Source of the DNA: a bacterium
Lineage (GTDB): Bacteria > Vulcanimicrobiota > Xenobia > Xenobiales > JADMJV01
NCBI GenBank assembly: GCA_030149525.1
Contig: JASBRJ010000129.1
Span: forward strand, 1-52,722
Direction of reading: 5' to 3'
DNA length: 52,722 bases
Shown here: piece by piece, positions 11,125-51,458 of the stretch
How positions within the stretch are numbered: position 1 is the stretch's first letter
Layout: the number at the start of each line of letters is the position of its first letter
Position numbers and translations under genes: made by a program
The notes under the pieces: model-generated
The model's input: only the letters and a program-made list of their open reading frames with translations
The model's database searches: none
What the model was told of the DNA's origin: nothing

Positions 11125-13086
11125 ATGAGCAAGGAAAAGGCTTCCACCTCGGAACTGAGGCTTGAGGAGCTACAAGAGGGCACCTTGGCAGCTCCGAAGG
11201 ACTCCGAGTTATGCCTGACTCTGGGGGAGGCTTTTCTGCGTGTCAACAAAGTCGACGACGCAGCCGCCAGCTATCAGCGTGCCGTGGAACTCGATCCCCG
11301 CTCCGATCTCAAGGCCCTCTACTGGGAGTGGCTGGGGTTGGTGCGGGAAATGGAAGGTCGGTTGGAAGAGGCGCTGGAGGCCTATTTTCAATGGCTTGAC
11401 ACCGACCCGGTTGCTATCAGCCCTCTGGATCGACTGGGAACTTTGCTGGTGGTGTTGGGTCGTTGGACCGATTTGCGGCTGCTCGGGCCCCAGTTTGAGC
11501 GACGGATCGAGGTCTCGGGTCATCCTCGAGGAAGAGAATCCTTGGCGCTCTACACGTTTGTTTCCGAGCAGTTCGGTCAAACCGAGACCGACGATGCTAA
11601 AGAGGTAACCCTGGCCGCTCTTGAGGCCGATCCTGACTCTCCCTCAATGCGTTTTTTGCTGGGCTTGATCGCCTATCGGGAGGGCAGTCTCGAGTTGGCC
11701 CGAGGGGAATTCGAACGGGTTCTGCAGTTAGATTCGGAAGGACTCTGGCAAGAGCCGCGCTTCGCTCTTGAATGGAACGCCTCTAAGGCCAGAGTCATGG
11801 TGGCAAAGCTTGCTCGCCAACAAGGAGACGTGGAAACGGCGCTCCGATTGCTAACCGAGGCCGAAGACTTGGAGCGCAGCGACTCTGAAGGGCTCATTGA
11901 AGTGGCCGAGTTGCTGGTGGAGAACAATCACTACGATCAGCTCTTGAAATTGATGCGGCAAGTGCCTTCCGGACCGTCGAGGTTGAATCGATTGGAGGCG
12001 GAAAGCCTTCTGGGCAAAGGGCGGCTGTCTCAAGCAGAAGGGATCTATCAGACTGAGGCCAGCCTGTTTCTGCCGAATTCTAGCGAGCCCGAGTCTTGCC
12101 TTGAGCCGGCAAGCCTCTCCCAGCGCCTGTGGGAACTCCATAGCCGTTTCGGTCAGGGGGAGTCCATCGGTGAGGCCCTCGGTGAGTTACGACGGGAATT
12201 TCGCGAGAGCCTGGAGGAGCACCCGGTGGGGGCAAGCCTCACCCTTCTCAGCCGATTCTCCTCAGGTGTTCTGGACAGCGAAGCTCTTGAGCAACAGGTG
12301 ATGAAGTTGTGTGCCGACTTTCCTGAAGAGCTCATCGTGTGGGAGACGTCTCAGCGGATTCTTCAAAGCATCGGACGCCCTGCTCAAGCCCATCTGTCGG
12401 CTCTCATGGCCAGCAAGTTGCGCCACGGTTCTCAGCCCGGTCCCACCGGCGCCTACAATGCACGACAGGCCCCGGGGCCGAGAGTTTTGGTGGGCATCGT
12501 GACCGCCTACGGCCCACTGGTTGTGAAGATCGAAGCTGATGTGGGAAGACATAAGACCAATACCCTTTTCGGTTGGGGTCGGGACGTGCTTGTTTCGGGT
12601 TTGGATCTTGCCGGTGGTGTGCTGGAAAATCTTGCCGAAGAGCACTCCGCGTCGCGGGAAGCCCTACCGGAGTTTTCCTTTTTTCCCAAGAGCTTCAGAG
12701 TGATGGTAACGCCCGTCTCGGTGCCCATGGAGACATCGGCAGCCGGTCTGATGGAAGACGGAGAGTTGGCAAGCCTTCCCTTGGGATTCTTGGTGGCGCT
12801 TCTCTCGGTGGTCAAGGAGCCGGCCTGCCAGGACATTCTTGTCATGGGAAGGTTGGGTCTCAGGGGCCAGGTCGACGGTGTGCCGGATTTGGAAGAAACG
12901 CTTCTTGCCGTTCATCAGAGCGGAGCAACCTGGGATCAGTTGTTGCTGGCTGAAGCCGGGGCTTTTCGGCTGCTTCGAGCGCCCGCGTGGCTCTGGCACG
13001 GTCGGAAAGTGACTCTGGTTAAAGAAGCCTCCCAACTGGTCTTGCCGCCTCCCCGCACCCTCCATTACGGAAAGGAACTCGCGTGA
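11125..13086 (+). CDS. TPR protein with C-terminal degenerate Lon/RadA-type (S5-fold) domain
   Basis: A cytosolic protein of 653 aa from ATG 11125; an in-frame TTG at 11095 has less support. Residues 1 to about 430 are tetratricopeptide-like helical repeats (SYQRAVELDP is a clear TPR). About 450-615 resembles the C-terminal domain of Lon, RadA and ComM: VLVGIVTAYGP, VLVSGLDLAGGVLENLA, VMVTPVSVP, LGFLVALLSVVKEPACQD and MGRLGLRGQVDGVPDLEETLLAVHQSG. The Lon catalytic Ser (DGPSAG) is replaced by DGELAS and the catalytic Lys (GGLKEK) by DLEET, so it cannot be a Lon-type protease. It overlaps the Clp-like gene as GTGA, implying a functional pair. The fold assignment rests on pattern matching only. 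Confidence 0.8.
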   Translation: MSKEKASTSELRLEELQEGTLAAPKDSELCLTLGEAFLRVNKVDDAAASYQRAVELDPRSDLKALYWEWLGLVREMEGRLEEALEAYFQWLDTDPVAISPLDRLGTLLVVLGRWTDLRLLGPQFERRIEVSGHPRGRESLALYTFVSEQFGQTETDDAKEVTLAALEADPDSPSMRFLLGLIAYREGSLELARGEFERVLQLDSEGLWQEPRFALEWNASKARVMVAKLARQQGDVETALRLLTEAEDLERSDSEGLIEVAELLVENNHYDQLLKLMRQVPSGPSRLNRLEAESLLGKGRLSQAEGIYQTEASLFLPNSSEPESCLEPASLSQRLWELHSRFGQGESIGEALGELRREFRESLEEHPVGASLTLLSRFSSGVLDSEALEQQVMKLCADFPEELIVWETSQRILQSIGRPAQAHLSALMASKLRHGSQPGPTGAYNARQAPGPRVLVGIVTAYGPLVVKIEADVGRHKTNTLFGWGRDVLVSGLDLAGGVLENLAEEHSASREALPEFSFFPKSFRVMVTPVSVPMETSAAGLMEDGELASLPLGFLVALLSVVKEPACQDILVMGRLGLRGQVDGVPDLEETLLAVHQSGATWDQLLLAEAGAFRLLRAPAWLWHGRKVTLVKEASQLVLPPPRTLHYGKELA

Positions 13087-14513
13087 GAAGAACACCTGAG
13101 TTTGAGTCGACGCTTGAGCGAGCCAGAGAGGAATGCCGTCTGCTCGGTCACGGATTTGTGGGTTCGGAGCATCTTCTTCTAGGGCTTCTGGGCTTTCGTG
13201 AAGGTGCTGCGGCCAAGTTTTTGCGAGAGCGAAAGTTTAGCCTCTCCCGTTTGCGTCAGGAAGTGGTTGCCCAGGTGGGCAAGGGTGATGGAAACTTCAG
13301 TCGTGAAAATCCACCTCCTTCGCTGAGAGCCCTGGGCATCGTCCGACTGGCCGAAGAGAGTGCGCGATTGGAAGGTTCGGAGGCCGACAGCCTTACGTTG
13401 CTGTGGGCGCTTCTTCGCGATCGGGAATCGGATGCCAGCCAACTCTTGGTTCGCATGGGCGTGGATCTGGCCAGTTGGGCCGCCGCCGTGGAGGAGCGGA
13501 TCGGTGAGCGAACTCGACGAAGACCGAGAACTTTTTTTCGGAAAGGGGAGCGTCAACGTTCCTTACAAGCGGAAATGAGACGTTGGAAGGAGCGCATGCG
13601 AGGGGCGCGTGATCTGCTGAACGAGCAGATGGTAGGACAGTCGGCCGCCGTGGACAGAGTGGTCTCAACGCTGACTAGAGCCTGGGCGGGTCTTGCCGAA
13701 TCTCGACGCCCTTTGGCCTCTTTTCTATTTCTCGGTCCTCGAGGGGCCGGTAAGGCGACTCTGGCCCGGAGCCTGGCGCCCCTTCTTTACGGTGATGAAG
13801 AGCGTTTGCTGAGGATCGATATGGAAGAATTTGGCGGAGAGGAGGACGCGGACCGTCTGACCGGTTCCAACAATGAGCCTCTCGGTCTTCTCACCAGCCT
13901 CGCCCTGGAGTACCCCTACTCCATCTTTCTTTTGGAAAGCATCGAGCGTGCCCATCCCAGAGCCTTGGCCAAGGTGAACCAGATTCTCGGTCGCGGCTTC
14001 GCGGTGGACGGTCAGGGTCAACGCGTGTCTTTTCGAGATCATGTGATCGTGCTTTCCGTGAACATCGACTCTGAATATATGGAGCGGACGAACCCTCTCG
14101 GATTTCGCCTCTCCACTCGGGGAGTGAAAGATGTTGACGTTATGGAGAAAGAGTTGCTTCCTGAGATAGAGCGGAATCTTGGTCGCGAAGTGACGGAGAA
14201 GGTTGACGAAGTGATTGTCTTCTATCCCCTAGAAGATCCCGAGTTTCGACAACTTCTGGATCGCTGGTCTCGGGAGCTTGAAGATAAGCTTTGGCAACGG
14301 CGCTCCTTGAAAGTGGAAGTGACGGAGCAGATCACTCGAGCAATCCTCAGCGAATCCCACTCCACCCCCGACGCTCTGCGTCGCAGTTTTCTCCGTATCG
14401 TCGAGAATCGACTGGCGGCGGAAATGCTCAACGGGCGCCTCAAGGTAGGGGAGAGTTATCGGCTGGAAACCGGCGAGTCCGGTGAAGTGGTCATCAAAAA
14501 AAAGGAGAGCTAA
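13083..14513 (+). CDS. ClpC-like protein: Clp-N domain plus degenerate single D2-type AAA+ module
   Basis: 476 aa. Residues 1-140 hold two Clp N repeats (RAREECRLLGHGFVGSEHLLLGLL; AEESARLEGSEADSLTLLWALL). After a basic linker, 180-476 align with the second ATPase of ClpB/ClpC (VGQSAAVDRV, SFLFLGP, RIDMEEF, FRDHVIVLSVN). D1 and the middle domain are absent. Walker A is GPRGAGKA (Thr to Ala at 225), Walker B LLDE is LLES, the pore loop GYVG is deleted, the NRID arginine-finger region reads TEKVD and sensor 2 is altered. ATP hydrolysis and substrate threading are therefore unlikely. The GTG start overlaps the TPR/Lon-like stop. I infer an adaptor or regulatory scaffold rather than an unfoldase. 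Confidence 0.85.
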   Translation: MRRTPEFESTLERAREECRLLGHGFVGSEHLLLGLLGFREGAAAKFLRERKFSLSRLRQEVVAQVGKGDGNFSRENPPPSLRALGIVRLAEESARLEGSEADSLTLLWALLRDRESDASQLLVRMGVDLASWAAAVEERIGERTRRRPRTFFRKGERQRSLQAEMRRWKERMRGARDLLNEQMVGQSAAVDRVVSTLTRAWAGLAESRRPLASFLFLGPRGAGKATLARSLAPLLYGDEERLLRIDMEEFGGEEDADRLTGSNNEPLGLLTSLALEYPYSIFLLESIERAHPRALAKVNQILGRGFAVDGQGQRVSFRDHVIVLSVNIDSEYMERTNPLGFRLSTRGVKDVDVMEKELLPEIERNLGREVTEKVDEVIVFYPLEDPEFRQLLDRWSRELEDKLWQRRSLKVEVTEQITRAILSESHSTPDALRRSFLRIVENRLAAEMLNGRLKVGESYRLETGESGEVVIKKKES

Positions 14514-14791
14514 CTCTCCTTTTCCCGCTTGTCCTTGGAATCTACGGATGACTCTTTGGCGAGGATCATCCCGGCCAAATTGGGCACTCGAACCTTGCCC
14601 TGGTCGGCCAGACGACAGAAGATTCCGGCCGCCGAAAGTCCGATAGCGAGAGCGAAACCGATTTTTCCCATGCTCTCGAAGGTGTCTCCCACTTCACCCC
14701 ATGTCACCGGTCGGCTCCGGGGGGCAAGTTCCGACCCGGGGCGAGTGGCAAGAGATGGCTTCGTTTCTTCTGGCTGCTGATCGTCTGTCAC
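14510..14791 (-). CDS. Small single-pass membrane protein, 93 aa
   Basis: Not recognised. Residues 1-30 and 70-93 are polar, with a charged C-terminal tail (SKDKREKES). A hydrophobic stretch at about 44-58 (IGFALAIGLSAAGIF) could span the membrane once. Its GTG start overlaps the stop of the NHL-repeat gene as GTGA, so it is co-translated with that gene. Its stop overlaps the end of the convergent Clp-like gene by 4 bases. A partner of the secreted NHL protein is possible but unproven. Confidence 0.65.
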   Translation of the reverse strand: MTDDQQPEETKPSLATRPGSELAPRSRPVTWGEVGDTFESMGKIGFALAIGLSAAGIFCRLADQGKVRVPNLAGMILAKESSVDSKDKREKES

Positions 14792-15906
14792 TTTTTCTTC
14801 TTCTTTTTCCCTTTGCCGTCTTCTTCGTCTTCCTCGGGTTCCGGTGCCGGAGCGGGGCTATAGATGAAGATGGACGTGGGGTTTCTTAGAACTGATGTGG
14901 GGTCTTGGCTGTGGCCGAAAAACTCACCCAAAACCTTGCCGCTGCCATCTACCTCCAGTATGCGGTCGTTGCCGCTGTCCGCGATGAAGAAGCGTTTCCC
15001 TGTTTCATCCACGGCCATGCCCTGGGGTCGACTCAGTCGCCATTCGCGAATGCGACGAAACGGAAATTCTCGCAATCGCTGACCTTCCATGTCGCGCATT
15101 TCAACGAGTCTCTGGCCACTTCCGTCTACGAACAGCATCTCTCGCCCGGCCGTCACCAGCATGGAGGGAAGGAACTGTGAGCCCTGTAGACCCTCTCCAT
15201 CGAACACCTTCCAGCGCCGTCGTCCATTGTCCATCCAGGTCTTGAAAAGTTTGCCTCCCGGAGGGTCTTCTCCGGCACAAATATATAGGGCTCCGTCACC
15301 GTCGAGCCAGAGGCTGCCGGGTCGCGTCATTTGGCTGTGGGTCAGAACTTCTTTGAAATCCCGTCCGGTTTGCAGTTCATCGATCAAAACCACACGGTTG
15401 GCTTTGGTGTCGGCAATGTAGATGCCGTTCTTGTCTGCGGCCACCCCCATAGGCGAGGAAAAGCCTTCCATTTCGGCCCAGCCGCCGTCGGAGCTTTGAT
15501 CCATTCGCACCACTCGGTTGTTACCACTGTCGGCCACGTAGAGGCGACGTTGATAATCGACCCAAACCTGGGCCGGCCGAAGAAAGCGACCGAAGCCGTA
15601 ACCCGGGAGGCCTACGCTGGTGTAACCGTAACCCTTGATCCCCTGCATGATGACGACTCGACCGTTGTCGGTGTCGGAGATGAACATGACCGGTTCGCCG
15701 TTGGTGGGATCGACCTTCTCGGTGGCGGGGTCTTTAGCTTCTTCCTCGTTGGGCCCGAACAGCGCTTCGATGCTCTGTTCCGTGTTGGTAGGTTGGGCGA
15801 CCGGTTTCTTGGGTTTCCCCTCGGTGGCCTGTCCGAACGTGGTTCCGGTCGTCAGAGTGACCAGGAGAAGCAGCGTAAGTAACTTTGAAGGTGACACTGA
15901 TGGCAA
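14788..15906 (-). CDS. Secreted NHL-repeat beta-propeller protein
   Basis: A 372-aa exported protein. A signal peptide is visible (about 1-25, [20 protein letters not shown]), then a Pro/Glu-rich linker, then NHL repeats forming a six-bladed propeller: [45 protein letters not shown] and weaker copies. The C terminus is an acidic run followed by seven lysines (GKGKKKKKK). The TTG start at 15906 has AAGGAG 9 bases upstream, which supports it. NHL propellers usually bind proteins or sugars; no enzymatic motif is seen. It is divergent from pta over about 68 bases and coupled to the small membrane gene downstream. Confidence 0.85.
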
Positions 15907-19423: not shown

Positions 19424-20650
19424 TTGGCTCAGAAAAAAGCGAAGAAAAAGCAACAACACAAGTCCGATAAAAGCAGGAGCGGTGCGTGGTTGATCGTGTT
19501 TCTGGTCGCCCTTGTCGGGGTGGCAGGTTACCTCTATCTGAAGCCCAGTAAAATCGTCGTGCCGTCCCTGGTCGGAAAGACTCAACAGGAGGCCCAGGAA
19601 GCCCTGGCTCAACTGCGGCTTCGGTCCGAGATTCGATTGGAGACGCCTGCCGCTGAGGACACCCGACCGGGTGTAGTGCTCAAGCAGGCGCCGGCCGAAG
19701 GCGTAGAGCTTCCCGTGGGCTCGGTCGTCACGCTGTTCGTCTCGGACTCTCCGGACGGGATACCTCTTCCCGATGTGGTGGGCAAGACCCGCTCCCAAGC
19801 CGAGGATATCCTCAGGAGGCTCGGCTTCGAGGTCAGCTTTAAGGATGCCCAGTCCGACTCTGTTACAATCGGGCAGGTCATAGCTCAAGAACCTTCCGCT
19901 GAAGCGCGACTGGCCAAAGGTGGAACTGTTGTTTTGACCGTTTCGGCCGGCAAGGGTGAGCAGACCATTCCCAGCCTGACAGGCTTGACTCCCGAAGCCG
20001 CGGAGGAGCAGTTAAAAAAGTTGGGACTGGAGATGGCCGTTTTGCAGGTTGTGCAGTCGGGTTTTCGGAGCGGCGACCCTGTGCGGGTTCTCAGGCAAGA
20101 ACCGGAAGCGGGTCAGAAGATCAAGCCTGGATCACGGGTGACCGTGTTTCTTCCCATTCCAGCGCCATCCGTTCCCGACTCAGGTGCATCAAGTCATGCT
20201 TCCCACGCCCCGCGGTTGGAAGGTTTGACAGTGGCTCAGGCCAGGAAGGTTGCCGGTCAGAAAGGCGTTGAACTCGAGTTCGCCGAGTCGGCCGACGAGG
20301 CCGCCGTGATCACCTTCCAAGATCCCCCTCCCGGAGATCCCCTCTCCGCCGATTCCGCCGTCCTGGTTCGAACGGCGGTCTCTTCAGTCGTCCCGGGAGT
20401 GACGGGGCTCTCGGAGGCCGATGCTCGAGCACGTGTGGAAAAAGCTCAATTGGTGGTAGGAAGTGTCAAGAAGAGTTACGGACCGGTGAAAGGTGAGGTG
20501 CTCGGCCAGAGGCCCGCAGCGGGTATCGAAGTGACGGCCGGCAGCACTGTGGATCTGGTGGTGGGGGACCCCTCTGTGTCGCCCGACGCAGCTAAGAACA
20601 CCGCCCCCGCGCCGACCCCGGCTTTCACCCCGGCGCCCTGGGTGGACTAG
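19424..20650 (+). CDS. PASTA-repeat membrane protein without kinase domain, 408 aa
   Basis: A short basic cytosolic head (KKAKKKQQHKSDKSRS), one membrane segment (about 21-40, AWLIVFLVALVGVAGYLYL) and an extracytoplasmic part of about five PASTA domains. Four are clear (starting VVPSLVGKTQQEAQ, PLPDVVGKTRSQAE, TIPSLTGLTPEAAE and VVPGVTGLSEADAR) and one near 270 is degenerate; a Pro-rich tail follows. PASTA domains bind muropeptides or cell-wall precursors in PrkC-type kinases and penicillin-binding proteins. The kinase half is absent here. The TTG start has GAGG 7 bases upstream. It heads an operon with a second PASTA gene and rpe. Confidence 0.85.
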   Translation: MAQKKAKKKQQHKSDKSRSGAWLIVFLVALVGVAGYLYLKPSKIVVPSLVGKTQQEAQEALAQLRLRSEIRLETPAAEDTRPGVVLKQAPAEGVELPVGSVVTLFVSDSPDGIPLPDVVGKTRSQAEDILRRLGFEVSFKDAQSDSVTIGQVIAQEPSAEARLAKGGTVVLTVSAGKGEQTIPSLTGLTPEAAEEQLKKLGLEMAVLQVVQSGFRSGDPVRVLRQEPEAGQKIKPGSRVTVFLPIPAPSVPDSGASSHASHAPRLEGLTVAQARKVAGQKGVELEFAESADEAAVITFQDPPPGDPLSADSAVLVRTAVSSVVPGVTGLSEADARARVEKAQLVVGSVKKSYGPVKGEVLGQRPAAGIEVTAGSTVDLVVGDPSVSPDAAKNTAPAPTPAFTPAPWVD

Positions 20651-27535: not shown

Positions 27536-30500
27536 GTGAGTGTAAAGATCGCCGAAAAGCTTGAGCGCGACCGCCCTTATAGAGAGCGTCGCATCTCACT
27601 CGGGCCGGGTGTGGTTTGGTTCTCCAATCCGGACCTTGGTACCGGTTTGTGCTTCCCGATCAAAAAGCTCGGATACCGGGCCCGATTGAGCGGGCCCACG
27701 GCGGCTGTAGAGGGTTTTCTCACCTTCGTCAATCCCACGGCGGAAAACAAGACAGCCTACTTCCTGTTTCCGCTGGATCGCGGGACAGCACCTGTGAAGA
27801 TCAGGGGCAAGGTCGGTCATCGGCAGTTTGAGACGGAGCTTGGACCTGCTCCCCAAGACGATTCAGAGGAGGAGGGTCGGCTCGAATTGCCGGCCGAGCT
27901 TTCCAAGCTCTTTCAGGAGGAGACGGAAAACATTCTGGCCATTCCTCTGGGGGAGGTTCCCGCCAACGGAGAGGTGAGTTTTCAGCTCCTACTGGCTCAA
28001 ATGGCCTACGATGTTGGGGACGCGGGAATGGGGTTCTCCTTCCGCCTACCTCTGCTCTGCTCCCGGGCCTTGACAACCCTCAACCCTTCCGACACCGGTC
28101 AGTATGAACTAGCTAAAGGCCTCGACCGTGGAGCCCAGGTAGCGATCTCTATTCAGATCGAGGCTTCCGACCTGCAGCCGGGTCGCATTGTGGCCTCCCA
28201 AACCTGCGCGGTGGCTCGCAATCCAAACGGCGACCTGGCTGTTGAGTTCGACCGTCGCAAACCTTTGGAGGCCAAAGACTTCGTTCTAGATTATCAACTG
28301 TGGGCCGGTCCCCGGCCCAAAGCTTGGCTCCGAAGTCAGGGGCGTCACTTCCTGCTTAACTTTTTCCCACCGGGCCAGCCCACACCCAGCGCTCCCCGGC
28401 GATTAGTGATTCTGGTCGACGGCTCGGAGGAGATGTCTCGCATCGGGGATAGGCGCTGTAAGGACTTTCTTTCCTACATACTTAAGAACTTGGCGCCGGA
28501 GGATCGATTCGCCCTGGTCACTTTCAGCCGGGAAGTCTCTGGATACAAAAACGGTGACTTCGTGGAGGCAGGGCTTGCTGCGGAAGCTCTGCAGTGGATG
28601 GATGAATACCAATTCGGTGGCGGAGCCGATCTCAACGAGCTTCTGCGACGGGTTATCACCCTGCCTCGCCAAGCCGACAGCGTCCTGAGCGTTGTGGTGG
28701 TTGCGGCGGGGAGGATCGGGAACGAGCCTCAGCTTTATAGGCTCTTGCAAGGATCAAGAGATATTCTCAGGCTTTTCCCCGTCCTTCTGGGGCCTAAAGC
28801 CGATCCTCATTTCGCCAGAGCAGCCGCCAGATTGACCGGAGGATTTGCCTTTCGTCCCCTCAACTTGGAAGCGGTTCCCAGGGCGGCACAGCGTGTTCTG
28901 GAGCACTCCCGGCAACCGGTCCTGGAGGGCGTGGGATTTCAAGACAAAGGCCTTCAGTATCAAGGGGAAAGTCTCACTCCCAAATACCCCAGTGGCCTCA
29001 ACTGGATGCGGCCTATCACGGTTATGGGGGCTCACTCCGGTCGGGGAGGTCTGGAAGCGAGCGGCACAGGCCCCGGAGGAGTAGGCTGGAGCGAGTTTTG
29101 CGAGTTAAAGCCTGTTTTTCATAAGGTGTTGGCCAACGTGTGGGCTCAGGTGAAAGCTTCTGAACTCGATGATGAAGCGCAGATGCTCGACCGTGCCGAG
29201 CGAACCATTCTTCAGAATGTCATACGCAATCTCTCCAGAGAGTTTCAGCTCTTTAATCGCTTTACGGCGGTTTTGATCAAGTCGAGCGACGGTTCCGTCG
29301 ATATGGCGCCTCCTATTGAAGCAGCCAGTTGGTATCGCAGAATCGAGAAAGAACTCCACAAGGGTAAGTCTGCCAACGAACTTCTGGAGGAGCAAAAACA
29401 TCTCAAAGACCTCAAGTCGGGTCTGTCCAAAAGGCGGGCGCCCGGCAAAGGGCTGAGAATGAAAGAGAACATCGGAAAACAAGGGACCGCTCCCTTGTTT
29501 GAGTCCAAGATTGGGCATCGCAACAAGCTCGCACCCAACATCAAAGAGGGCTTGTTCAATAAACCGGTTCTCAAGTCGCGCAAGGACGGTCTCACCGATC
29601 CCAGTACCGGAAGTAATAAACCTTTCTTTCCTTCTCGCGAAGCTTCGCCCATGAACGGTCCTGGAAGCGAGTATGGCAAATCGGCCAAGAAAAGAGCACC
29701 CGAGGTGGCGGCTCCTCGACCGGTCAAGCCTCCCGAGCCTGCTCCCTCGCTTGAGTCCGAGTCCATGGCTCCCCTGCCCGATCCTGTTTCACCGGCGCCC
29801 CGCACCACGGAATCTCCGGTTCCCGAGTTTGTCTCGACGGTCCCTGAGGCTCCATCCACTCCGGAAAGGGGTGAGAGAGACGGCGGGCCAGATCTTTCCG
29901 AGCGTCCCACCACTCGACTGGACGGTGGGCGGCGGGAGATTCCGGAGATCCCGGCGACTTCGGGTCCGGGCGACTCTCTCGATCCGACAGGCCCTGGCCA
30001 GCCTACCAAGCCGATATCGGTTCCAGAGTTCGCTCGCATCAGGCCTCAACTCTCTTCGGAAGATTCTTTGGGCGTCGAAGAAGAGGAGAGCAGAGAGGAT
30101 GATCCGTCTCATAGACCGGTCATGGGCTCAGGTCTACCGACCATCGGTATGCGACCTATGCTGAGTGAGCCTCCCTCCATTGAGCCGGGTCCTGCGGTGG
30201 AAATGGAAAGGACCTCGTCGCCTCAAGAAACTCCTGTGGAATCTGGAGTTCCGGTAGAGGAGCCTCCGGGTGCCTTAGACCCTACTCAGCCAACGAAGAA
30301 GCTGGCCGGATTTGCCAAGAACTTGGATGAGGCACGGTCGGCTACTCTTCCTACCGCTCGTGAACTGGCGGCTAAGGTCACCCCCGAGGCCATGCAAGGC
30401 AATCCCATCGATACGGCCAAGAGTGCTCTTCGCCAAGATCCCATGAGTCGGAAAACTCTCATGGCGGAAATGAAGATGCTCCATACAAGTCTAGGAGAAC

Positions 30501-30694
30501 TCAACGATGCCGCTCGTCTCACGGAGCTCACCGATGCTATTCTGTTTCGCCTGGCAGATATTGCCCCCAAGGCCAAGCTATTGGTTCAGGCTTACGACCG
30601 CGGATACAAGGCAAGAGAGGCGCTCCAAGCGAACACGGCCGACGGCAAGCAGAAGTTGAAGGTCTGGTTGTCTCAGTTCGCCAAACTGTTTTAG
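27536..30694 (+). CDS. Large cytosolic VIT-vWA domain protein, 1052 aa
   Basis: Residues about 40-280 look like a VIT (vault/inter-alpha-trypsin) beta domain (GFLTFVNPTAENKTAYFLFPLD, AIPLGEVPANGEVSFQLLL). A von Willebrand A domain follows at about 288-470 (RRLVILVDGSEEMS, LAPEDRFALVTFS). The metal site (MIDAS) is degenerate: DxSxS reads DGSEE, the Thr motif reads GGGAD and the Asp motif reads VVVAAG. A helical part (550-650), a long Pro/Ser/Glu-rich disordered region (650-940) and a C-terminal helical domain complete it. There is no signal peptide or membrane segment, unlike most VIT-vWA proteins. The GTG start has AGGAAGGAAG about 13 bases upstream. Function unknown; a scaffold is likely. 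Confidence 0.85.
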   Translation: MSVKIAEKLERDRPYRERRISLGPGVVWFSNPDLGTGLCFPIKKLGYRARLSGPTAAVEGFLTFVNPTAENKTAYFLFPLDRGTAPVKIRGKVGHRQFETELGPAPQDDSEEEGRLELPAELSKLFQEETENILAIPLGEVPANGEVSFQLLLAQMAYDVGDAGMGFSFRLPLLCSRALTTLNPSDTGQYELAKGLDRGAQVAISIQIEASDLQPGRIVASQTCAVARNPNGDLAVEFDRRKPLEAKDFVLDYQLWAGPRPKAWLRSQGRHFLLNFFPPGQPTPSAPRRLVILVDGSEEMSRIGDRRCKDFLSYILKNLAPEDRFALVTFSREVSGYKNGDFVEAGLAAEALQWMDEYQFGGGADLNELLRRVITLPRQADSVLSVVVVAAGRIGNEPQLYRLLQGSRDILRLFPVLLGPKADPHFARAAARLTGGFAFRPLNLEAVPRAAQRVLEHSRQPVLEGVGFQDKGLQYQGESLTPKYPSGLNWMRPITVMGAHSGRGGLEASGTGPGGVGWSEFCELKPVFHKVLANVWAQVKASELDDEAQMLDRAERTILQNVIRNLSREFQLFNRFTAVLIKSSDGSVDMAPPIEAASWYRRIEKELHKGKSANELLEEQKHLKDLKSGLSKRRAPGKGLRMKENIGKQGTAPLFESKIGHRNKLAPNIKEGLFNKPVLKSRKDGLTDPSTGSNKPFFPSREASPMNGPGSEYGKSAKKRAPEVAAPRPVKPPEPAPSLESESMAPLPDPVSPAPRTTESPVPEFVSTVPEAPSTPERGERDGGPDLSERPTTRLDGGRREIPEIPATSGPGDSLDPTGPGQPTKPISVPEFARIRPQLSSEDSLGVEEEESREDDPSHRPVMGSGLPTIGMRPMLSEPPSIEPGPAVEMERTSSPQETPVESGVPVEEPPGALDPTQPTKKLAGFAKNLDEARSATLPTARELAAKVTPEAMQGNPIDTAKSALRQDPMSRKTLMAEMKMLHTSLGELNDAARLTELTDAILFRLADIAPKAKLLVQAYDRGYKAREALQANTADGKQKLKVWLSQFAKLF

Positions 30695-44846: not shown

Positions 44847-44900
44847 TGTCACATGTGGAATCGCTGTAGGAGGCCTGTCTGTGTTGGCGAAGGTCGAGCA

Positions 44901-47900
44901 ATGAGCCACCGGTCCAGCGCAGAACACGACGAAGACATTCGTCCCGAGACCGAGTCTGACGAAGCGATTCTCACCGATCTGATCCTATGGGGGAGACTCC
45001 TCACATGGCTTGTGGAGGTCTTAGACCCTTTTTATCAGATTGCCGACCTGCTTCAGACCGATCACCCCCTTCGTGACTCCGACAAGCCGCTTGGCTCCTT
45101 CGTGCGTCATTTCGGGAAAGGGGCGACGGGCTCGGAGTTTTTGAATTGGTGGGCAGGAAGGGAAGATTCTCTACCGCTTATTCAAGAACTGGAAGCCGCA
45201 AGGGCACTCCTGCCGCTCGGGCTCGCCCACCGATGGCGTGCCAACGAGCTACAGAGTGGAGCACGTTCGGCCTTCGCGGCATTGGACCGAGACTGGACCA
45301 TAGAGAAAGACCGGCTGGTCCTCACAGGTACGGACAAGTGCGCCGTTTTCTCCAAGCCGTTGGAGGATGACCTGTGGCGTCATGTGTTGCACAGTCTGCC
45401 CTCCGAATCGAGGAGAGGACAGCCCGACCAGGGGGTACGATTAGATGATGCTATTGAGCGAGTTCGCTCCTATTTCGCTCCGTTGGAGTCTCCATTATTC
45501 GGGATGGATCGAGAGCTTTTGGCTCACCATGTCCGGGAAACCATTCCAAGAGAAGGCCCTGTAGGCGATATGACACCCATCGTTCCACTTTTTGGGAAAG
45601 GACAGCTTCGTAAAGCGTTCTCCTCCAGCGCCCATTTGCCGGCGCACCTTCGAGTGATACTGCATCGTCTGGTACGAGCCCAGGAGAACCAGGATCTGGT
45701 CACCGCTCTTCTCTCTACTTTGGAGGCTGTGGATTTCTCCATTCGGTTTGCGACCGGACTGGCTCAGGGCACTGTTGCGGTCCTCACCGAAAGTGATTTC
45801 GCAGGCGATTTCAACCCCACCACTCAACAGCTTCTTGAAGATCTCGACGGCGCCATTCAAATCTTGCCGCAGTATTGGGAACGACCCGCTGCTCAAGCTG
45901 CACTGAATCTGGTCTATCAGGGCAGGGAACTCAATCCTTTCCTGAGCTGGGCGGGCTTTAACGGTGAACCGAGACTGCTCGATTGGATGATGGAGGCCGA
46001 GGAGGCCATCCGGCAGGACAATCCTCCTCGAGCCGCTGTTCTTCTGTCTGAGATGATGGAGTTTTTCAACAGTTGGATCGCCGAATTGACACTTCTGTGT
46101 TCCTCCTGGGACCTGGTCACGCATGTCAGACAGGACGGATATCTTCAAATAAGTATGGGGCGAGGAGAGGTTTGGCTGAGTTGCAAGCCGCTTATCGATC
46201 CGACTCGCTATTCCGTCTGGTTGGACAGATCCGAGTTGACACTGGTGAACACCGGTGGCGAACTTAACGGCATTCGCGACGCTCAAGAGCCGGTAGCTTC
46301 CTTGGATGAGAGAATCGCCGTAACAGAGGATGATCCACCGTTTTTGGCCGAGCAGCTACAAGCCCTCGTTCGGGCTCATGAGCAGGGAGAGATACTGCCT
46401 CTCGGGCGTGCCTTGTTTTTTGGCTTGGAGTATCTCGTCCGCCTCCATTCGAGTCTCGCCGGGGGGTTCTTGCGTCACTTTTTTGACGAAGCATCGTTGC
46501 TGGACCCTGTTCTAAAAGAAGGTGGTTCATTGGAACATACCATCTACTTCCTGTCTTACAGTCAACGTATTATCGGCTCCTCGGAGAGTGCCGAAGCGAT
46601 CATGTTGAATCGGGTCTTTTTCGATAGCGATGGGGAGCCTCGAGAGTTTTCCCGCTGGCTCGGCGTGGATGGAGGGGTTCCCGGTCCTCTGCAGGGCCTT
46701 CTCGGTTGGAGTCTCAGCCTCATGCGTCCGGATGCTATCACTCGACTGGATGAAGTTCGTGGACAGGTGGAGCGTTTGAGTGGCCTGTTTGCCGACTTTC
46801 TTGAGGAAAGCCGCAAGCTGTGGCAAAGAGCTTCTCTGAAAACCGATGCCACTGAAGAAGCATCGGAAGCCATTGTTCTCACTTTCCCCAGCGGACTTCA
46901 TCTTCGCGGGATTCCCGATGTGATGGTGGGGCCCCGAATGGAGCGGGGTAGGAGAAGCGTCATTGTCAGTCAGTCCAGTGATCCTCTGGAAGAGTTCTCC
47001 GACTGGGAGGGGGAAGACTTTCAATCGACTCCTGAGAAATCCAGGGAAGAATCGATCGAAGAACCCTCCTGGCCAAGCTTTTTCGACGACTCGGAAGACG
47101 AAGCTGTGACCTGGACCGACGAGCTGAAGTCCAGAATAGAACATCTCTGCGCCAATCGGGCATTCTCCGGGCCTCAAGATCGCCCCAATCGATTGGCTGC
47201 GGAGATTTCGGAGATCATCCTGAGTCAGTCCTCCGATTCGGCCGCGGTCATGTTTTGCCAGGGAGGACCAGGTTCGGGGAAGACTTTTCTCTGTCGAACT
47301 CTTACCAGTGCCGTGCACTCTCCGTTGCCTGAAGATTATCCGGTTCTCTTCCTTCGACTGGATCGCTTCCCTCAGACAAGGTTGTCCACAGTGGTCGAAA
47401 GGCTCAACGACCATATCGCCGGTGAACAGAGTCTGGCAAGATTCGAGTGGACTTCGGTCCCTCTGGAGAGCTTGAAGTCCTTGGGCAGTGAAGTGGCCCG
47501 CTTGGCCGACGATCTCTCGGCCCTAGGAGTGACTTCGGAGCCGTTGGCCAACAGACTCTCAAGCTATCTTCGTCAATTGAAAAAGCTGAACAACGACAGA
47601 AATTTTCTTCTCATCCTGGATGGATTTTCCGATGTGCCCGCCTCCATCATACCCACGGCACTGCCTCCGGGAGTGAACCTTCTTATTACCGGAACGCACT
47701 TCCCCGATATTGAGGAGTTCGACAATCCGTATGTGGAATTTCGAAGCTGGGAGTTGTCTTACAGTGTGGAGGATGCTCTCCACAATCAACTGGCCGGGCT
47801 CGGTCTCACCGAGGCGGAAACGCTTCGGGCAAGAGAGCGTTATAACGGGAGTCTTTTCCTGGCCCGTGCTTTCCATGATATGCGGGAGTTCGAGCCCTCC

Positions 47901-50900
47901 TATCCTGCCGGTCAGGAAGTTGTGGGCGACTTATTGGCCCTGGCAAGGACCAAGTACGGCATCGACTTTCCGCAGTTCTTGAGGCTTCTGGTCATTCTCG
48001 GTCTCTACGATCGACCGGTGCCGCTGGGCACCCTCCAACGACGGATTCCCAACGGTGAGCTCGTCCTTGATGCGCTCACCAATTTTCCCAGTCTCTTCGC
48101 TTACTGGAGTGAGCCGAAAGCCTCCCTGGGTCTGGGTCATCGCAACGTCCTCAACTATTACGACGAGTTCCAAGCGGTGCTTCCTGAGATCGCTTGCGAA
48201 CTTGCCGAGAGCTTTCTGGAAAACCCTCGAAGAGGCGATCTGCTGCCGGCACTCCGCTGGTTTGAGGTGTCCGACAACCATACGCTCATCGATCGTTTTT
48301 TTGCCCAGGAGTCGGCGGCCCAATTATGGCGAGACGAACTGTCCCGTCTTATTGATCAGGGTCTGTTTTTTCAACGGGTCGCTCTCTTCGATGCAGCCGC
48401 CGGACCCCTGGGTAAAGCGGTTCTTGCCGGTGCCGGTCACTTGCGAGAGGAGCTTGCCTGGATTCATAATGCCCGCGGCCTTTCGCTTCTGGAACTCGGG
48501 CTCACGGAGGAGGCCGTCTTCGACTTTGAGGAGGCTATAGAGCTCTTCTCGGAGCAGTTTGAGTCGGGAGATTTGGCCGTTCTTCAGGCCATGGCTTCGG
48601 CTCACAGCCGCATGTCGGAAGCGGCTTTGAAAAAGGGAGACCTGGAGCTTGCCCTGAGGAGTTCGACCAAGGCGTCCGAGCTCTTGAGAGAGCATGTCCT
48701 GTCGGCGGAGAATCAAAGTTTACAGTTGGCCGAGCTTCGAGCCCGCGTTCTGCTGCAATCGGCTAAGGCCCATTTTGCCCTGGAACTCTATGAGGACGCT
48801 CTGGAACATCTTGCTCGCGCACTTCCGGACCTGACCAGGATGGAAGCGGAGCGCGCCACTCCTATTCGAGGAGAATGCTTCGCTGTGGCTGCTCAAACCA
48901 TGGCCGCTCAAGGACAAGAAGAGGCGGCCCTTGAGCAGATCGATCTGGCCGTTCAGCATCTCTTGACTCGGGCAACTGCCGAGGAGGGGCTTCAAGCTCT
49001 TATCCTTCGAGGTCGACTCCGCCAGAAGGTTGGGCAGGCCGCTCTCTCTTATCGGGATTATCAGCGGGCTCTTTCTATCCTTCGTTACCAAGTTGCCAAC
49101 GGTCGTTTGGATCTGGAACCCCTTCTGGCTTACACGGTGGCCCAGGCGAGTCTTGTGTCGGCGGCCGAGAGAAGCTCTTCTCAGGCGGAATTAGGAGAGT
49201 ATATCGAGTGGGCACGTCGACGGATTCGATTCGAAGGGCGAACCGATCTGCGAGGATTACTCGCTTTCCTTCTGCTCACTCGGGGAGCCGGATGGAAAGA
49301 GCAGGGGCTATTCACCGAGTCTGCCGCCGATTTGCGAGGGGCCACGGAGCAGTATGAACTTTTGAGCCGTGAGATAGACTCGGAGAGCGATCAACCGGTC
49401 TGGGCGGCTTTGCGTCAGAGTTTTCGCAATCTGACCGCGCTCTATCTCAGTCTGGATGAGCCACACTTGGCACTGATTTGCGGCCGTCGCGCCCTGGAGC
49501 TTGGCCGACGAGCCGACTTCGAATCCAGTGACGAGAGCCTGGAACTCCCCCTCACTTCGATGATAGAAACGCCCACCCTCAATGAAGAAGAGGCCGAGCT
49601 TTCCGAAGTGCGTCTCTATCAGTTAGGGAAGCTCTATTTTCATCTGGGAGAGGCCGCTCGTCGTGTTGGTCTCAAGGAAGACGGAGCAACCTATTTTGAG
49701 CGAGCAGCGCGAGCGTTCGCCCAGTCGGTGAGTAGCTTCGAAGAGATCCCCGACCGGCTAGCGGCCGAATACGCCCTGGTTCTCAAGTTTGCCGCCCAGG
49801 CAGCCTTCGACGACGGAAACGGTTATGCGTTGGAGCAGTGGGTCGACGAACTGGCCTCGCTTCCCGACGGTCATCTCACCCAGTTCGATCAGTACCGTTT
49901 CTGGCGTTGGTCGGGCCACACGTTGCAGAATCGTGGCTCCTTCGAAGAGGCTCACTCCCATTTCGAAAGAGCTCACAAAGCCCTCGAGGAAGTCGAGGAG
50001 CATCCTCGATCAAGTTCTTTGCAAGCCGAGATCTTGCTTGACCTGGGCCGAGTCCTGTCTCTTCAGGCGCGACACGACGACGCGCTTCTTCGTCTTGACC
50101 AGGCCTCTCAAAAAGCGCACGACGCCCTCTTTGTGGAAGGGGAGGAGAATCGCGATCTTCTCGTTTTGTGCGCACTCCATTCTGCCGTAGCCCATCTTCG
50201 CTCCGGTCGACTGAGCACCGCTCTTGAACAGCTTCGGATCCTGGTTTCCCTCAGGCCGGGCGAGGATCTCCATGAAGTGGAGGTTCTCGCTTTGGAGTGG
50301 ATTCGTGCCTGGCAACAGGTTGATCCGCCCTCGGCTATCGAGATCATGAAAACCCTGGGTCAACTCTCGGAGCTAGGAGATTGGTTACTCCAGACCTCGC
50401 TCGGCGAATGGTATCGGGAGTTAACCTTGCTTCTCATCAACGACCAGGAGTTCTCTAGCTTAATCCTCAGCAGCGCGCGGGTGGATAGAATTCTTGAGAC
50501 TTATCTGATCCTCAACTTTAGCCGGGTGGAGCAAGACACTCGTCCCGAGGCGCACCCTGAGATAGAGAAGCTCCTTGCGGCCAAGTTTCGTGCTTTTGAT
50601 TCGGAGAATCGCGACTTAGAAGCCGAACTTCTCATGGGGCACCTTTTGCCTCTGAGGATCGACGAGGAAGCCGGCAAGGTTCTCTTGCGTCGATCGGAGA
50701 TGGCTCTTATGAGAGGCGACAGGGGATTGGCCATCATCGATCTTCTCAGGGCCATCGAAGCTGGAAGCGAGTGTCATCTCAGAGCTCACTTGAGATTGGC
50801 AGAATTCTTGCAATCCAGAAATCTTCACGCGGCAGCCGTTCATCATTTTCGTCTGGCCCTTCAGGCAGCCGACCGGCATACGCCCGAGTTGAGCATTTTG

Positions 50901-51458
50901 TGTGCCCGTTTTTGCCGTCTTATGACCAATCTCACCACAGCCGGAGTTCGACTAGACTTGGATTTCTTCCGGGAGCACTTCTCCGTGCTGAAGAGTCTGG
51001 ATGAGAGCAAGATCAAGCCGGCTCTCGATGTTTCGTGGCTTCGTCCGGCCCGGGAGCAGCAGGAGTGGCCTCAATTCCTAGCTATGACTTTAGACCTTCT
51101 CCTGGGCTGGCAGGAGACCGGCCACGACAAGGGCGATGACTGGGAATTTTTGGAGGAGGTTCTGGACCGGACCGTCTTGTGCCAGGGGCGTCTGCCGCTG
51201 AGTTTGCTGGAGTCGTTCGGAGAGTTGCTGACGGGGGCCCTGTCGACCTACGATGTGCAGAACAGAGATCATGCAGCTGTTCTGTGGGAGCGCTTTATCA
51301 ACTTTCTACCGGGGCTGGGCAAACGTAACGCGTTGGAGCTTTTGCAAAGGCTTTTTGACTTTGCCCTCAGAACTGAGTCCGCCTCACAGAACGGCCATAC
51401 CGAAGAGTTTCTGCGTAGGATCGAAGAAGAAAAACGAATCCTCGTTCAGCCACGCTGA
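44901..51458 (+). CDS. Giant STAND-type P-loop NTPase with TPR-like repeats, 2185 aa
   Basis: The ATG at 44901 is chosen; AAGG lies 8 bases upstream, and an upstream ATG at 44853 would add 16 residues. Residues 1-740 are an alpha-rich region with no recognised effector domain. About 750-1130 form a STAND-like NTPase: Walker [10 protein letters not shown] (788-796), Walker B NFLLILDG with Asp907, a sensor-like LLITGTHF, then helical parts like the winged-helix/arm of STAND ATPases. About 1190 to the end are helical TPR-like repeats ([26 protein letters not shown]). STAND-TPR proteins include transcription regulators and Avs antiphage sensors; which type this is cannot be told. No transmembrane segment is seen. 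Confidence 0.88.

Follow-up and report, generated by a model that had tools for sequence, protein, structure and literature searches.

What can remain of a protease and its unfoldase when both appear to have lost their catalytic residues in the same operon, and what would such a pair of proteins do? This question was raised by an initial annotation of a 52,722-nucleotide stretch of DNA (the window), which belongs to a draft genome of 8.27 Mb and had been described as carrying two GTGA-overlapping genes, one for a TPR protein ending in a Lon-type domain and the other for a ClpC-like protein. Both open reading frames were found at that place, with an overlap of 4 bases, and an AAAGGA ribosome-binding-like stretch lies directly 5' of the GTG start codon of the second gene. 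Their products are called P1 and P2 here, and the region is organised as follows:

11125..13086, + strand: P1, ATG start, 653 aa, a TPR protein with an apparently dead Lon-type P-domain at its C-terminus (ORF, Pfam, orthologues in 10 genomes)
13069..13086, + strand: joint of P1 and P2, comprising the AAAGGA stretch and the 4-base GTGA overlap (sequence)
13083..14513, + strand: P2, GTG start, 476 aa, a ClpC-derived pseudo-unfoldase without D1 (Pfam, PDB profile, model, Foldseek)
14788..15906, - strand: secreted-looking NHL-repeat protein, a conserved neighbour (synteny; Pfam NHL, E 6e-15)

The P1 protein is divided into two halves of different character:

11125..12408, + strand: TPR region, residues 1-428 (Pfam TPR_16, E 9e-22; helical-repeat model)
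12409..13083, + strand: C-terminal relative of the Lon P-domain, residues 429-653 (family profile, alignment with the Lon of relatives, shuffles)

Residues 11-240 were modelled by AlphaFold as helical repeats, with pLDDT values mostly about 85-95. The C-terminal domain of the window protein is strongly diverged, and P1 alone gave weak Pfam matches there (Lon_C, E 0.037; ChlI, E 0.014). A profile of nine C-terminal domains of the family, when compared to the PDB, matched Lon with an E value of 7e-16, BrxL with 2e-8 and RadA with 0.29. Lon_C was matched by 8 of the 9 family members (best value 5e-7), the one from genome G006 exceeding the Pfam cut-off, and the window domain scored about 17 bits against a Lon profile built from relatives, the best of 2000 shuffled sequences reaching 8 bits. 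The resemblance to Lon (S16) spans the whole P-domain, from the N-terminal PGxGxLxxTG through the C-terminal LPxxxxxxLxxLP. Judged by its sequence, the C-terminal domain of P1 belongs to the Lon P-domain family, in agreement with what had been proposed. The initial annotation had also considered a descent from RadA or ComM, which found no support, given the RadA value above and the likeness to Lon across the entire P-domain. Scored directly, the window domain obtained 3.4 bits against a RadA profile made of a single sequence and 16.7 against the Lon profile, whereas ComM was compared through Pfam ChlI only.

The alignment with the Lon proteins of relatives revealed that the catalytic lysine has been lost in every P1 copy, the window reading glutamate instead (DLEET), as first reported. 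The companion claim, that the serine had been replaced at DGELAS, stood in part: no aligned P1 member has a serine in the catalytic column, but in the window the position is ambiguous, since either TSAAG or DGELAS could fall there. P1 differs from Lon in the lack of the Ser-Lys dyad, in the absence of the Lon AAA+ domain from the chain and in its fusion to TPRs. Structure prediction gave an uneven outcome: P2 was modelled confidently (see below), whereas the C-terminal domain of P1 was not resolved (pLDDT below 50 for residues 440-569) and Foldseek, queried with the P1 model, returned TPRs and no Lon-fold match, so that the assignment of the domain to the S5/Lon fold rests on sequence homology.

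The features of P2 are the following:

13122..13505, + strand: two Clp_N repeats, about residues 14-141 (Pfam PF02861, two stretches; helices in the model)
13587..14474, + strand: degenerate D2 AAA+ domain, residues 169-464 (Pfam, PDB profile, motif alignment, tree)
13734..13757, + strand: Walker A GPRGAGKA, Lys kept and Thr lost (motif alignment)
13929..13940, + strand: Walker B remnant LLES, DE lost (motif alignment)
14097..14108, + strand: LGFR at the position of ClpC's ClpP-docking loop, residues 339-342 ([VL]G[FL]R in 10/10 orthologues)
14196..14207, + strand: EKVD replacing the arginine-finger motif NRID (motif alignment)

Pfam matched P2 to Clp_N (two stretches, E 2.8e-16) and AAA_2 (E 3.7e-19), a PDB profile identified ClpC as its closest solved relatives (E 6e-93), and its model (pLDDT 82) was matched by Foldseek to ClpC and ClpB. 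With about half the length of ClpC, P2 shares with it the two Clp_N repeats, the large and small AAA+ domains of D2, the P-loop lysine and the tripeptide of the ClpP loop, but lacks D1, the M-domain, the pore loop, the Walker B glutamate, the arginine finger and sensor 2. This architecture, with Clp_N joined directly to a ClpC-type D2, was found in 10 of 10 orthologues, and the window motifs (GPRGAGKA, LLES, no GYVG, EKVD for NRID) read just as they had been quoted.

The degree of loss varied among motifs. The GYVG pore loop, the Walker B glutamate, the arginine finger and the sensor 2 arginine were gone in all ten P2 orthologues; the Walker A threonine was replaced in nine, G006 retaining it, and the sensor 1 asparagine in eight, being kept only in the window and in G007. 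On the other hand, the Walker A lysine was invariant, and six orthologues still have an acidic pair (ED) at Walker B. Of the 87 D2 columns invariant in ClpC, 14 were kept in all seven P2 genera or lineages sampled, with a mean retention of 40%. Three residues, W201, A212 and D329, are invariant only within P2, and at the level of sequence they mark it as a separate family. As the losses recur across ten genomes, they cannot be put down to sequencing errors. The central idea of the initial annotation, that the domains of both halves can still be recognised while their catalytic residues are gone, was thereby extended to the orthologues: the Lon lysine and, in P2, the pore loop, Walker B glutamate, arginine finger and sensor 2 were missing throughout, and no homologue with intact sites was seen. 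The window genome (G000) also carries a run of three ClpC-like AAA+ genes at locus L155 (contig C330, 18000-29000); their Walker motifs are intact, but the GYVG pore loop is missing. Clusters of a similar kind are present in G001-G005, and G006 has related genes.

How constant is the association between the two genes? Among 149 genomes of the phylum (cut-off E 1e-75), full-length P2 was detected in 10, all from one order, and was absent from the other 139. P1 orthologues occurred in those same ten genomes and in no others of the 58 relatives and class genomes searched, so the co-occurrence implied by the first description was confirmed without exception in this set. All genomes compared are draft assemblies, and P1 and P2 were adjacent in 10 of 10, separated by -4 to 48 bases except for 250 in G013, where a contig end splits the P1 gene and its C-terminal part adjoins P2. 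Neither gene was found in G001-G005, five genomes from the same family as the window, or in the three genomes (G015-G017) of the sister family. In a GTDB-wide scan, no full-length protein appeared outside the carrier group among the matches listed, those of UBA6111 and of a goat-rumen MAG belonging to the same group. The P2 sequences formed one clade, set off by a long stem (support 100/100) and broadly in line with the families, a pattern that suggests vertical inheritance within the order, followed by loss from one genus. The carrier order probably corresponds to Eremiobacterota, UBP9/Xenobia lineage; genomes of 8 Mb have been reported for Ca. Eudoremicrobiaceae, a family of the UBP9 order (PMC9259500).

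The NHL-repeat gene, which several relatives carry upstream of P1 in the same orientation, is a conserved neighbour of the pair, as are a Pta-like gene and another TPR gene. None of the neighbouring genes (NHL, Pta, TPR and Dus) suggested a link to proteolysis, and no BREX gene was seen among those examined. A defence system was considered and discarded: PADLOC returned only generic AAA+ matches and a weak BrxL match. The AAA+ match of P2 to DolB of Dodola (39 bits) was much weaker than that to ClpC, and the partner of P2 is a TPR/Lon-type protein, with the weak BrxL match as its sole PADLOC hit, and not a DolA-type gene. In G007-G009 a conserved lipoprotein-like gene, which had no match in Pfam, lies directly 3' of P2 (L066 499-2562, L067 9129-11084 and L069 5930-7948; outside the window). 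Elsewhere in the window there are a PASTA-only protein (19424-20650), with no kinase domain seen in its ORF and a G006 relative (L061 13124-15238) that has PASTA plus an N-terminal Ser/Thr kinase; a 1052-aa protein with VIT and von Willebrand A domains (27536-30694); and an ORF of 2201 aa with an AAA_16-type region and TPRs (44853-51458).

One element that had been overlooked in the first description bears on the partner of the pair. At the column of the ClpP loop, all ten P2 orthologues display the tripeptide-containing motif [VL]G[FL]R, which the ClpB-type D2 domains encoded in these genomes do not have, and its glycine (G340) is among the 14 ClpC-invariant columns retained throughout P2. 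Docking of Clp ATPases on ClpP is known to proceed through IGF-type loops (PMC9035409). In the P2 model, residues 336-349 form an unstructured loop (pLDDT below 50), and ClpP is encoded in 17 of the 17 class genomes searched, including that of the window. Conservation of the docking tripeptide suggests that ClpP, rather than Lon, is the likely partner, although a motif of four residues is to be taken as a lead and not as proof that P2 docks ClpP.

The initial annotation had suggested an adaptor, an anti-protease or a sequestering complex, all of which are possible. We tentatively favour, while regarding it as short of probable, a reading in which P1 and P2 form a non-motor cap or adaptor that, as one complex, regulates the Clp protease without unfolding. 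Gene adjacency and co-occurrence suggest that the two proteins would be made together and act jointly. P2 is a ClpC derivative deprived of D1 and of the pore loop, and presumably of the ATPase chemistry; its Clp_N repeats might hold adaptors or substrates, its P-loop lysine may still hold nucleotide, and its [VL]G[FL]R would fit the hydrophobic pockets on ClpP. P1 would contribute its TPRs as a receptor, together with an inactive Lon P-domain that might form rings. Sitting on ClpP, the pair could deliver or gate substrates, or compete with ClpC and ClpX for the ClpP face. A narrower version, an ATP-independent ClpP cap in which a pseudo-ClpC ring would be docked by its LGFR loops and joined to the TPR/pseudo-Lon receptor in the manner of Bpa/PafE, seems rather doubtful. 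A tight cap normally requires an ATP-bound hexamer, and the disappearance of the arginine finger speaks against one here. The docking argument, in turn, may be weakened by the shortness of the motif and by the presence of similar GF/GL motifs at the same position in other ClpC-like paralogues of these genomes. As to Bpa/PafE, which forms a ring without ATPase activity and brings substrates to a chambered protease (PMC10415612), the parallel is one of analogy only, its target being the 20S proteasome and not ClpP.

These proposals have to be weighed against others. Lost catalytic residues and a strongly diverged C-terminal domain could simply denote duplicates decaying without function, but this is scarcely credible: in four close orthologues within one genus, dN/dS was about 0.04-0.18 for both genes outside the variable P2 tail, frames are open in ten genomes and the pair has been kept together through three families. 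By region, the values were 0.04-0.08 for the AAA+ domain of P2, 0.10-0.12 for Clp_N, 0.28-1.0 for the variable C-terminal tail and 0.06-0.13 for the two halves of P1, the Pta control giving 0.04-0.07. Purifying selection on both genes indicated that the pair is maintained and not decaying. What is maintained might be a decoy or anti-adaptor, in which the Clp_N repeats of P2 would bind adaptors or substrates and keep them from the genuine ClpC, with P1 as the receptor partner and ClpP left untouched. Retention of Clp_N after loss of the motor would fit this idea, as would the canonical ClpC encoded in the same genome; yet it explains neither the survival of the ClpP-loop tripeptide in 10 of 10 orthologues nor an AAA+ domain more constrained than Clp_N, and we consider it unlikely.

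Two further possibilities appeared improbable to a similar extent. Torsins possess a single D2-type AAA+ domain without arginine finger and with an altered Walker A, a likeness to P2 that raises the option of a switch, P2 binding ATP and a partner supplying the catalytic parts in trans to yield a slow, regulated ATPase. The invariant Walker A lysine and the acidic pair ED of six orthologues would agree with it, but the sensor 2 arginine and the Walker B glutamate are lost in every copy and the sensor 1 asparagine in most, and torsins have lost fewer catalytic features than P2. Torsins are eukaryotic ER proteins without Clp_N that are activated by LAP1/LULL1; they offer an AAA+ precedent for an activator with a strictly conserved arginine (PMC4358337, PMC4999309), but no AAA+-like activator domain was detected in P1 by Pfam. 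Alternatively, the folds may serve a role outside proteolysis, reused as a ring or a platform for assembly. BrxL provides the precedent: its C-terminal domain is of the Lon type, is devoid of protease residues and joins rings (PMC10164562). The match of the P1 profile to BrxL and the P2-specific invariants W201, A212 and D329, which suggest a new surface, point in this direction; against it, the profile matches Lon much better than BrxL (E 7e-16 vs 2e-8), and the ClpP tripeptide is left unexplained. The chain of BrxL includes an AAA+ domain and no TPR, whereas P1 has TPRs and no AAA+.

Pseudoenzymes are common. In a limited search of the open-access literature we found no described pair of unfoldase and protease domains that are jointly devoid of catalysis and linked, nor pseudo-AAA proteins with a ClpP loop. 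Under the regulatory reading favoured above, the pair may direct or prevent the breakdown of proteins instead of performing it. Should P2 dock ClpP, it would be a regulatory protein that employs the docking key of the unfoldase but not its motor; docking would be separated from unfolding, and ClpP would have an inhibitor or activator of natural origin. Through the pair, a group of uncultured bacteria with large genomes also becomes accessible to testing.
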